DNA from: an uncultured Fibrobacter sp.
Lineage (GTDB): Bacteria > Fibrobacterota > Fibrobacteria > Fibrobacterales > Fibrobacteraceae
Assembly (NCBI RefSeq): GCF_947166265.1
Contig: NZ_CAMVDO010000027.1
Span: 1-35,458 of the forward strand
DNA length: 35,458 nucleotides
Reading direction: 5' to 3'
Both the position numbers and the translations under genes were made by a program. Under the pieces are notes generated by a model. That model did no database searches. It had not been told where the DNA came from and saw only the letters and a list, made by a program, of their open reading frames with translations. Position 1 is the stretch's first letter, and each line of letters begins with the position of its first letter. Shown here in pieces: positions 1,346 to 4,908 of the stretch.

Positions 1346-1512
1346 TAAAAAAAAGGCATTCCGCACGGTGGAACACTCGAAGCTACTCATTCAAAAATGA
1401 TAGCAGTGCCTCGGGGCTTTGTTTTTCGCGTCGGAGCGCGCCTAAACTGAACACCAAGAGCGACGAGCTTTAATAATACTGTTAGATCGGGCGTTAATCC
1501 GTGGGATGCCTG
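1346..1512 (-). ncRNA. Candidate structured small RNA, about 165 nt
   Basis: This 410-bp gap (1269-1678) holds no convincing ORF. On the minus strand an 11-bp closing stem with two bulges joins AGGCATCCCAC (1511-1501) to GTGCGGAATGCCT (1366-1354), followed directly by T8. Inside is a second hairpin, GCTATCATT/AATGAGTAGC (about 1409-1387), extended by CACT/AGTG, and a small CGCG hairpin near 1430-1440. Upstream, TTG-N20-TATATTAG (about 1549-1518) fits a Fibrobacter/Bacteroidetes-type promoter and would start transcription at the closing stem. The size and terminal closing stem are reminiscent of 6S RNA, but I could not match it to 6S, SRP RNA, tmRNA or RNase P RNA. Confidence 0.45.
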
Positions 1513-1678: not shown

Positions 1679-3580
1679 TTATTTTTCGCTGGCGTCGCCT
1701 TCGGCGGGGGAGCCGTCGTCCTTTTTTTCGTAGTCGGGCGTGATGAAATTGGCACAATACTCGGCGACTTTTTCGCGGAGGTTGTTGCCGCGGACCTTGC
1801 CGAGCAACAGTTCGATGTCTTCGAGGGGGGCCGCCATGAAAGATTCTGCGCTGCGGTATTTCGAGAGAATTTTCACGCGCGTCTCGTGGCCGACACCAGG
1901 CATCTTGAGCCATTCGACTTCGAGGTCCTTCTTGCGCTTGCTGCGTTGGTAGGTGATGGCGAAACGGTGCGCCTCGTCGCGGGCGTTCTGCAAAAGCTTT
2001 AGCGCGGGGCTTGTGCGGTGCAGCACGATGCTTTTGCGGTCGTCGGGGAATACGATTTCTTCGAGGCGTTTCGCAAGTCCGATGAGCGGTAAATCTTGGT
2101 CGTGGCCTAGTTCCTTGAGAATCTGCATCGTGGCGTCCACCTGGCCCTTGCCGCCGTCGCATACCCACAGGTCGGGCATGGGCACGCCCTCGTTTTCGAG
2201 GCGTTTAATGCGGCGGGTCATCACCTCGCGCATGCTCGCGAAGTCGTCAACGCCTTCGACGGTCTTGATGATGAACTTGCGGTAGTTGCTCTTGTCGGGG
2301 CGCCCGTTCTTGAAGGCGACGAGGCTTGCCACGGTGTTGGTTCCGCTGAGGTGCGAAATGTCCACGCACTCGATGCGGAAAGGCGTCTTTTTCAGTCCGA
2401 GAACTTTTTGCAGCTCGAAAACGCTCTGGTCGATTTCGCTGTACTTCTGCACTTCGGCGCGCATTTCCACGAGGATCATGTCGGCGTTTGCGCCGGCGAG
2501 CCTCAGGAATCCGAGTTTTTCGCCGCGCTGGGGAACCGTGAACTGTACCTTTCGCCCCGCCTGCTTGCTGAGCGCCGCTTCGAGTTCTTCCTTGTCGTCG
2601 GGGAGTATGATGTCGGTCGCGATTTCGGCAGGGATCAGGGGCGCCTCCATGTACCACGGGAGCACCATCTGCCTAAAGATTTCCGTCTCGTCGTCTTCGA
2701 GCTTGCATTCGAGCCGGTAGTGCCTGCGCCCCATGAGTACGCCCTTGCGGTACTCGAGAATCACCGCCGCGGCCATGTCGCCGTTGCGCCGGAGCGTCAC
2801 CACGTCCAGCGAGAGGTTCGGGTCGCTGGTGTCGGTTTTCTGGTGCGTGCCCGTCGCCTGCAGCGCCTGGATGGCGTCGCGTTTTTTCATCGCGGTTTCA
2901 AAGTCCAGGTTCGCGCTCGCCTCTTCCATTTCGCGCTGCCATTGGTCTATCAGGTCGTCACGCTTGCCTTCGAGCATGAGCCTTGCGTTGGCGACATCCT
3001 TGGCGTAGTCTTCCTGGCTAATGAGCCCTGCGCAGGGGGCGCTGCAGCGGCCGATATGGTAATTGAGGCAGGGGCGTACGGGGCGTTTGGCGGGCAGTTC
3101 CATGGAGCATTCCCGCAACTTGAAAAGCCTTGCCCCGAGATCTATTAGTTTGTCTATAACACGGGAGCCCATGTAGGGGCCGTAGTACTGGCGACCGTCT
3201 TTCTTGACCGAACGCGAAAGGGTGAGTCTCGGGAAGGGTTCCTTGACTGAAAATGCCAAGTACGGAAAGTGCTTGTCGTCTTTCAGGAGTACGTTGTACT
3301 TGGGCGTGTGCTTGCGGATCAGGTTTGCCTCGAGGATCAGCGCTTCCTGTTCGCTTTCGGTGATAATCCACTCGATATCGCGGATAAAGGGGAGCATGAG
3401 CGTTGCCGCGCGGTGCCCGTTGTGTTCGCTGCCGTCGAAGTAGCTGCGCACGCGGTTCTTGAGCACTTTCGCCTTGCCGATGTAAATGATTTTCCCCTGG
3501 GCGTTCTTCATGATATAGACGCCGGGGCGGTCGGGCAATTCCGAGAGCCTTCGCTGTATATGTTCATTTACAGAAATCAT
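1679..3580 (-). CDS. uvrC: Excinuclease ABC subunit C
   Basis: UvrC makes the dual incisions around bulky DNA lesions after UvrAB loading, in the cytoplasm. The 633-residue protein has the expected order. First is a GIY-YIG nuclease (RPGVYIM at about 18-24, IIYIGKAK at about 31-38). Then come a four-Cys cluster (CSMEL...CLNYHIGRCSAPC), a UVR motif (LDFETAMKKRDAI), an RNase H-like endonuclease (CVDISHLSG, CDGGKGQ) and a C-terminal helix-hairpin-helix (MPGVGHETRVKIL). The reading frame extends upstream to 3742, but the protein begins like other UvrCs at the ATG at 3580, so I chose that start. No strong ribosome binding site precedes it. A short acidic tail (KKDDGSPAEGDASEK) follows the HhH. It is divergent from the coiled-coil gene at 3651. 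Confidence 0.96.
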   Translation of the reverse strand: MISVNEHIQRRLSELPDRPGVYIMKNAQGKIIYIGKAKVLKNRVRSYFDGSEHNGHRAATLMLPFIRDIEWIITESEQEALILEANLIRKHTPKYNVLLKDDKHFPYLAFSVKEPFPRLTLSRSVKKDGRQYYGPYMGSRVIDKLIDLGARLFKLRECSMELPAKRPVRPCLNYHIGRCSAPCAGLISQEDYAKDVANARLMLEGKRDDLIDQWQREMEEASANLDFETAMKKRDAIQALQATGTHQKTDTSDPNLSLDVVTLRRNGDMAAAVILEYRKGVLMGRRHYRLECKLEDDETEIFRQMVLPWYMEAPLIPAEIATDIILPDDKEELEAALSKQAGRKVQFTVPQRGEKLGFLRLAGANADMILVEMRAEVQKYSEIDQSVFELQKVLGLKKTPFRIECVDISHLSGTNTVASLVAFKNGRPDKSNYRKFIIKTVEGVDDFASMREVMTRRIKRLENEGVPMPDLWVCDGGKGQVDATMQILKELGHDQDLPLIGLAKRLEEIVFPDDRKSIVLHRTSPALKLLQNARDEAHRFAITYQRSKRKKDLEVEWLKMPGVGHETRVKILSKYRSAESFMAAPLEDIELLLGKVRGNNLREKVAEYCANFITPDYEKKDDGSPAEGDASEK

Positions 3581-3650
3581 TTGGCATTTATGCAAAAATT
3601 TAGTTATCTTAATATTGTAAAAGTTCTGAAAATCTTTATACGGAGCAAAG

Positions 3651-4550
3651 ATGAATTTAGAAAAAATGAGTATGCTTTCCCAGAAAATCGAGGGTGTCCT
3701 GGGAACGGTTCGAACCCTTAAAGAAGAAAATGCAAAAATCAAGCGGGAACTGGCTGCCGCGCACGCAACGCTTCAGGACAAGTCGCTTCTCCTGGAGACG
3801 GCCAATTCGAATCTTGCCGAATGCAAGGCCGCTCTTGACGCGAGTGTGAACCAGGCGAACGCCCAGAGCGATATGCTTGGAAAGCGCGAAGCGGAAGTTG
3901 CCTCGCTCAACGACCGTGTAACGGTTCTCGGTCAGCAGCTGGTGGAAAAGGACGGCTGCATCGAAAGCCTCGAAGCCAAGGTTCGCGAACTGACTTCCAA
4001 TGCGGAACTGCTTGGCGGACAGATTAACGAAAAGTCCGAACTCTTGAATGCCGTGAATGCGCAGGTCATCGAAAAGGATGCGACCATCGCCTCGCTCATG
4101 ACGCAGCTCAACGAAAAGAACAACATCATCGAGGGCCTGAACGAACAGCTGGAAGCCCAGAACGAAGAAATCGCCGAGGCTCAGGAAAAGTTCACGCAGC
4201 TGGTGGAAACCATCGAAAATGAACTCGGCACGGATATCCAGCTCGACCAGGGCGATGATGCCCCGGCAGCAGAAGATACGACCGAGGCCTCTCTCGAAAA
4301 TGAAGCCGAAGAAGCGGTGTCCGAAGATGCCGTCGCCGAAGAGGTAGCATCCGAAGAACCTTCCGCAGAAGAACCGGTCGCCGAAGAGTCCGTGGAAGAA
4401 GCTCCGGTTTCCGAGCCGCAGGTAGACGAATCTGTGTCGCAGGAAACCGAAGAGGACATTCCGACGATTGAAGTCCACAGTGCAGACGAAAATGACAACG
4501 ACTTGTTCGCGAGCAAGCAGGAGGGCTCGCAGACAAATTTTTTCGGATAA
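3651..4550 (+). CDS. Coiled-coil protein upstream of zapA (ZapB-like candidate)
   Basis: The 299-residue protein has a long heptad-rich coiled coil from about residue 5 to 185, with many Glu/Lys/Gln/Leu positions and no membrane segment. It is followed by a highly acidic low-complexity tail (about 195-285, repeated EE-A/S-V units) and a short C-terminal motif DLFASKQEGSQTNFFG that could be a docking peptide. The start has GGAG 8 nt upstream. It is followed after 43 nt by a ZapA-like gene, so the pair probably forms one operon. By context it may be a Z-ring accessory protein resembling ZapB in shape, though ZapB itself is only about 80 residues. The cell-division role is inference from the neighbour. 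Confidence 0.8.
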   Translation: MNLEKMSMLSQKIEGVLGTVRTLKEENAKIKRELAAAHATLQDKSLLLETANSNLAECKAALDASVNQANAQSDMLGKREAEVASLNDRVTVLGQQLVEKDGCIESLEAKVRELTSNAELLGGQINEKSELLNAVNAQVIEKDATIASLMTQLNEKNNIIEGLNEQLEAQNEEIAEAQEKFTQLVETIENELGTDIQLDQGDDAPAAEDTTEASLENEAEEAVSEDAVAEEVASEEPSAEEPVAEESVEEAPVSEPQVDESVSQETEEDIPTIEVHSADENDNDLFASKQEGSQTNFFG

Positions 4551-4552
4551 GG

Positions 4553-4594
4553 ATGCTGATGGATGACGATCCATTTGGCGTAGGGATAAAATAA
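4553..4594 (+). CDS. Possible 13-codon mini-ORF coupled to zapA
   Basis: ATG at 4553 opens a 13-codon frame (MLMDDDPFGVGIK) whose TAA overlaps the next ATG as TAATG (4592-4596). It fills almost the whole gap between the two division genes, and a GGATAAGG stretch lies before it. It also contains the hairpin ATGGAT-GACG-ATCCAT. It may couple translation of zapA to the upstream gene, or the overlap may be chance. Confidence 0.25.
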   Translation: MLMDDDPFGVGIK

Positions 4595-4908
4595 TGGCTA
4601 CTATCGAACCTTTAAGATCGGTAAATATCTCCGTTGCACAGGAAATGATCCAGATCCGCACCGACTTGCCCGATGCGGAACTTTCCGAAATCGTAGATAG
4701 CATCAACCAGCGGTTTGAACGCTCTGCGAAATTCCAGATGGACAGCCGAAAGCGCATGGCTCTGCTTGCAGTCGAGCTGATGTCCGAAATCAAGGAAATG
4801 CGCAAGCAGCTCTCCCGAGCAAAGATCTACTACGACCAGATGGAGAAGGAGATTCAGAACATCACGCTCCTGCTGGACGAGGGCATGGACGGTCTTGAAC
4901 GGTTGTAA
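4594..4908 (+). CDS. zapA: ZapA-like cell division protein
   Basis: The 104-residue protein has the ZapA layout. A short N-terminal beta-rich head binds FtsZ (VNISVAQEMIQIRTDLPDAELSEIVDSI, about residues 9-36). A long helix and coiled coil follow (MALLAVELMSEIKEMRKQLSRAKIYYDQMEKEIQNI) that would dimerise and tetramerise. ZapA family proteins bundle FtsZ filaments at mid-cell. The length is typical. It follows a long coiled-coil gene, as expected for a division accessory operon, and a strong terminator follows it. Sequence similarity to ZapA is moderate, so the call rests on fold pattern, size and context. Confidence 0.75.
   Translation: MATIEPLRSVNISVAQEMIQIRTDLPDAELSEIVDSINQRFERSAKFQMDSRKRMALLAVELMSEIKEMRKQLSRAKIYYDQMEKEIQNITLLLDEGMDGLERL

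Follow-up and report, generated by a model that had tools for sequence, protein, structure and literature searches.

A probable divergent 6S RNA in Fibrobacter, below detection by the Rfam 6S model

We suggest that a minus-strand gene at positions 1347 to 1513 of a 35,458-nucleotide stretch of Fibrobacter DNA (the window, taken from a 3.77 Mb genome of this genus) encodes the 6S RNA (ssrS) of Fibrobacter in a lineage-specific form that is too divergent for the Rfam model, and we put the probability of this reading at about 0.9. On this reading the RNA is an undescribed branch of the known 6S family and not a new kind of RNA. The assignment draws on a gene order that includes zapA, on a distribution complementary to that of RNAs recognised by the Rfam 6S model (RF00013), on reciprocal matches between covariance models, and on an anatomy like that of 6S RNA. 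An initial annotation had listed the segment as an unassigned structured RNA and remarked in an aside on its likeness to 6S RNA; the aside was well founded, and 'unassigned' becomes 'divergent 6S RNA'. Searches of the literature on Fibrobacter 6S RNA or ssrS turned up no description, and the main 6S survey (Wehner 2014) possibly holds a tentative candidate.

Read along the minus strand, the RNA segment (1511-1347) is closed at both ends by a stem, contains hairpins and finishes in a U8 tail; it starts with AGGCATCCCACGG (1511-1499), and its 3' end reads CCGTGCGGAATGCC followed by T8 (1354-1347). This T8, which had been placed directly after the stem, does abut it in the manner of an intrinsic terminator retained by most relatives, and its first T pairs with A1511. 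The promoter, described earlier as of the TTG-N20 type on the minus strand, resolves into a -35 element, TTGTTT (1548-1543), and a -10 element, TATATT (1525-1520), separated by a 17 bp spacer. TATATT stands just upstream of the RNA at 47 of 48 homologous loci, and a TTG at 16-17 bp spacing accompanies it at 42 of those 47; the promoter is kept across loci while the surrounding sequence is not. Judged from the promoter spacing and the U run, the predicted transcript extends from about 1513 to 1347, or about 165 nt, which agrees with the size first proposed. At loci L082-L084, L032 and L033 the U run past the closing stem is weak or absent and a separate terminator hairpin lies further 3' (in L083, ACTCCGCC-TA-GGCGGAGT-T7), which suggests that the 3' ends of these RNAs may be processed from a longer precursor.

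The predicted fold closes end to end, at -50.9 kcal/mol. Such stability does not stand out for a sequence of this composition (z = -1.67; 13 of 200 shuffled versions fold equally well), so support beyond chance comes from conservation and covariation. In covariation alignments that were fitted to the structure, and are biased towards it to that extent, 94.8% of cells are paired among 44 distinct sequences, a figure that falls to 34-44% when the partner is slid, and a broader set of 22 very divergent sequences has double changes at 31 of 40 pairs. The covariation check in relatives that had been proposed with the initial annotation gave double changes at 27 of 40 pairs in the 44 distinct sequences, against a shuffled mean of 10.4, and none of 500 shuffles reached 27. 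Compensations are also visible by eye in a plain alignment, as where GGCAUCC/GGAUGCC becomes GGCGGUCCC/GGGACCGUC in L028-L031. As a 1-bp stem insertion was misaligned by MAFFT, RNAalifold did not recover the closing stem from that alignment, and a named structure with a covariance model was used instead. With conservation across the genus, covarying stems and a promoter at nearly every locus, the proposal of an independent structured RNA, equipped with a promoter and a terminator of its own, holds.

All the structural elements lie on the minus strand. The closing stem P1 joins its 5' arm, AGGCATCCCACGG (1499-1511), to a 3' arm (1354-1368) identified by the predicted fold and covariation, and double changes occur at 13 of its 13 pairs. 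It had been described as 11 bp with two bulges; the two 1-nt bulges are present, both on the 3' side, but the predicted length is 13 bp. The stem bordering the bubble, P2, is formed by AACGCCCGA (1487-1495), with compensations from C-G to U-A and from A-U to U-A, and by the covarying UCGAGUGUU (1372-1380), which is also the proposed partner in a collapse helix. On the 5' side of the central bubble (1462-1486) the motifs CUAACA (1485-1480) and AGCUCGU (1469-1463) are invariant in the genus alignment, and on its 3' side a hairpin (1383-1406, CUGCU...AGUAG) is conserved in sequence and shows little covariation. The apical arm P3 (1408-1461), which includes a GUUU/AAAC pairing and a CGCG hairpin, has double changes at 12 of 14 pairs. 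The rod shape tested in this way, with covarying P1 and P2, an open bubble and a covarying P3, is the 6S architecture. Two departures from the common form were observed: the apical hairpin is about 40 nt longer in one Fibrobacter lineage (L032-L035, L098, L100), with loop motifs unchanged, and the bubble has clearly diverged (CGUUCUAACA) in genus g16 (L095, L096, L106-L114).

A coding reading was also considered and rejected. A real coding frame was looked for and none stays open across relatives, stops being found in all frames in most species; for this reason, and because relatives differ by about 40 nt in the length of the apical hairpin, the 122-aa open reading frame at 1387-1755 is not a gene.

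Scans of the RNA against Rfam, at gathering and at permissive thresholds, returned nothing relevant. That no catalogued RNA would match, as had been stated from the letters, was thus upheld at the Rfam gathering threshold, and the Infernal check against Rfam suggested at the same time had PhrS as its best match, at a chance-level 8.8 bits. Searching the window's genome with RF00013 gave no match even at E 10. The Fibrobacter RNA falls outside RF00013 in the form in which that family is modelled; detection by a model is not the biological definition of 6S RNA. Two other stable RNAs were tried and rejected, since the genes for tmRNA (RF00023) and small SRP RNA (RF00169) lie elsewhere in the genome and the RNA locus matches neither model. 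As a separate observation, genome G035 has no RF00169 match and two other Fibrobacter genomes are just above the cut-off; the SRP RNA of G035 may be divergent too.

By blastn, one copy per genome was found in 35 of 37 genomes of the genus, and none outside the genus among 60 relatives. R1, a covariance model of the Fibrobacter RNA, gave one match each in 76 of 80 genus genomes, the four misses being incomplete genomes, and located the RNA in 17 genomes of seven further genera of Fibrobacteraceae; across the Fibrobacterota sample its matches are confined to this family. A broader covariance model, R3, adds more genera and one member of another family of the order, and matches a zapA-linked RNA in family f2 at 35 bits. 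RF00013 matches occur in 21 of 120 sampled Fibrobacterota genomes, three of them above cut-off, and all are outside Fibrobacteraceae. The family carrying this RNA is the one that seems to lack 6S RNA, and the two distributions are complementary.

Reciprocal searches connect the two groups, at scores that are weak (about 22 bits) though significant in small, preselected sequence, and with E-values made rough by a shortened calibration: R1, run unfiltered on ten Rfam-6S loci, has as its best match the 6S RNA of L073 (21.3 bits, E 0.0012), end to end; R3 on Rfam-6S loci has as its best match the 6S RNA of L080 (21.6 bits, E 0.00055); and R2, a covariance model built from the 6S RNAs of family f9 only, has as its best match in 61 kb of Fibrobacteraceae sequence the RNA of the window (22.0 bits, E 0.00034), followed by L028. 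Among the top nine matches of R1, all those longer than 150 nt fall on Rfam 6S genes (L073, L074, L079, L076, L072), which they cover from end to end in the correct orientation. R3 does likewise with L080, L072, L078, L073 and L076, its matches off 6S genes being one short (rank 2) and one of 158 nt (last rank). On whole f1 genomes R2 returned noise and did not find the RNA; given the weak scores, the rough E-values and the lack of whole-genome significance, the likeness between models counts as support that falls short of proof. E. coli 6S RNA escapes R3 and scores just 7.9 bits with R2. In sequence, the Fibrobacter RNA and the f9 6S RNAs have CUAACA in common where the 5' bubble begins, and its apical arm has an AGG-capped GC hairpin like that of the Rfam-recognised 6S RNAs. 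Antisense matches of the covariance models at the same sites were discounted, being explained by the self-complementary long hairpin. A long inverted repeat (GGGCGUAU...AUACGCCC), met by chance by the models, adjoins a recognised 6S locus (L078, 2888-2985).

Gene order provides a line of evidence independent of sequence likeness. In 43 of 67 loci the gene directly upstream of the RNA, and on its strand, is zapA; the gap is usually 30-200 nt, and the linkage includes nearly all genera outside g16. The order (pheT)-zapB-like-zapA-RNA-ispA is found in L094, L115 and L116, with Pfam ZapA above cut-off; the last of these loci comes from a different family within the order, and the arrangement extends to that extent beyond the f1 basal genera. 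Judged from these genomes, zapB-zapA-RNA is a deep gene order. E. coli K-12 has zapA-ssrS-fau, ssrS lying 41 nt from zapA, and a survey reports that 6S genes of beta- and gamma-proteobacteria always come immediately after zapA in zapB-zapA arrays (PMC7641849). The Rfam-recognised 6S RNAs of family f9 do not adjoin zapA. Genus g16 (the loci listed above) has kept the RNA and not the zapA neighbourhood, the surroundings there being different.

In the window itself the upstream neighbour is uvrC (open reading frame limits 1679-3742, minus strand; Pfam UvrC and GIY-YIG domains), as it is in 13 of 67 loci, a neighbour confined to this lineage. Just beyond uvrC and in the opposite direction lie, within 3651-4908, a gene for a coiled-coil, ZapB-like protein (3651-4550, plus strand; Pfam ZapB weak, below cut-off) and zapA (4594-4908, plus strand), the latter recognised by tblastn to the RNA-adjoining zapA of relatives, with a Pfam ZapA match that is weak here and above cut-off in deeper genera. 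Because uvrC lies beyond zapA in the usual relatives, the uvrC-zapB-zapA block (1679-4908) looks inverted with respect to the RNA, and zapA was probably the ancestral upstream neighbour, displaced in the window by local rearrangement. Downstream of the RNA, the minus strand at 255-1268 encodes a 337-aa protein with no Pfam match, whose gene adjoins the RNA only in L001, L005 and L068 (and duplicates) among the fetched loci.

The intergenic position of the RNA, with its terminator 78 nt before the ATG of this same-strand downstream gene, would suit a cis-acting leader, riboswitch or attenuator; however, the 337-aa gene is near the RNA in few relatives and the RNA persists beside other neighbours. 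As the downstream gene is not conserved, we reject a leader or riboswitch and see hardly any chance of it at all. The RNA might instead be an unrelated lineage-specific regulator, such as an antisense or protein-binding sRNA, that sits near zapA by chance, as its very highly conserved loops and the lack of an Rfam match would allow, but its end-to-end reciprocal matches with recognised 6S RNAs, its distribution relative to RF00013 and its 6S-like anatomy make this very unlikely.

A change of target within a 6S-like shape deserves closer attention. Such an RNA would act on, for example, the RNA polymerase core, as the actinobacterial Ms1 does, and not on the housekeeping holoenzyme; the near invariance of CUAACA and AGCUCGU in the bubble and the precedent of Ms1 as a 6S-shaped RNA on the core enzyme (PMC9130861) speak for it, whereas the zapA linkage and the sequence match point to 6S and not to Ms1, and Rfam yields no match to any such family, so that we hold it decidedly improbable. 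It is also unlikely, on our estimate, that the molecule is a 6S-derived RNA with rewired polymerase recognition, in which the invariant bubble (CUAACA, AGCUCGU) would read a Fibrobacter-specific surface, the core enzyme or a particular sigma factor in place of generic promoter mimicry. We therefore retain the reading as a divergent 6S RNA.

As published, 6S RNA is a rod whose closing stem, bubble and apical arm together imitate an open promoter, and it is the template for pRNA, with release once P2 has opened; the collapse helix of B. subtilis 6S-1 then forms between the distal 5' bubble and the P2 3' strand set free in this way (PMC8876501). A Fibrobacter 6S RNA would mimic an open promoter by its shape, the closing stem and apical arm standing for duplex DNA and the central bubble for the melted region, and would occupy the housekeeping RNA polymerase holoenzyme when growth slows. 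Once nucleotides return, the polymerase would copy the 5' side of the bubble into a short pRNA, and once P2 opened, its 3' strand (UCGAGUG) would become available to form a collapse helix with the invariant bubble motif AGCUCG, and the enzyme would be released. What we infer for the Fibrobacter RNA is that it binds polymerase, is copied into pRNA, has a release switch and is regulated by growth phase. The E. coli pRNA has its start at U44, a position just within the closing stem. By analogy with this position, and by homology, the Fibrobacter pRNA (1486-1511, plus strand) is predicted to start opposite U26-U28 of the bubble and to read 5'-AUCGGGCGUUAAUCC..., and its candidate 5' starts are AUCGGGCG or AGAUCGGGCG; both statements are predictions only.

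The collapse helix can be followed in somewhat greater depth. With P2 formed by AACGCCCGA/UCGAGUGUU in the window, GCUCG of the AGCUCGU motif in the distal 5' bubble can pair with CGAGU of the P2 3' strand, and a pairing at the same place is possible, with changed sequences, in every f1 genus tested (GCUCGA/UCGAGC in L083, GUCUCGU/ACGAGAU in L097, GUCUUGU/ACGAGAC in L095, and a helix of 9 pairs in L115). Compared with shuffles sequence by sequence, p ranges from 0.007 to 0.31 in f1, the value for the window being a weak 0.25, and the helix is weak in f9. For f1 the collapse helix is suggestive only.

Fibrobacteraceae are leading cellulose degraders of the rumen and the horse gut. A 6S RNA in this family would fill a gap in the known distribution of a global transcription regulator: Fibrobacteraceae look 6S-less by Rfam, yet nearly every genome has one, and these RNAs can be found with a model drawn from the family-wide alignment. 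The contrast between a nearly fixed bubble and freely covarying stems singles out the bubble bases that polymerase may actually read.

Among known systems, Ms1 of Actinobacteria is a parallel in that it has a 6S-like shape in a group without an Rfam 6S RNA (PMC9130861), but Ms1 binds core polymerase, and no sequence or synteny link with the Fibrobacter RNA was seen. B. subtilis 6S-1 is probably alike in that the free RNA has a short hairpin in the 3' half of the bubble (PMC8876501), and possibly in a collapse helix between the distal 5' bubble and the P2 3' strand, that of Fibrobacter being predicted from sequence. The 6S RNAs of families f4, f7 and f9 resemble the Fibrobacter RNA in closing stem and AGG-capped apical hairpin, and those of f9 also in CUAACA in the 5' bubble, whereas they are recognised by RF00013 (three above cut-off) and do not adjoin zapA. 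From RF00013 6S RNAs at large the Fibrobacter RNA differs in falling below the model's detection, in its highly fixed bubble sequence and in the clean intrinsic terminator that its closing stem mostly carries, and it is about 20 nt shorter than that of E. coli. With these RNAs, E. coli ssrS included, it shares a weak end-to-end similarity by way of the Fibrobacterota 6S RNAs, and size, closing stem, central bubble and apical arm are alike, as is the placement of both genes, in E. coli and in Fibrobacter, directly after zapA.
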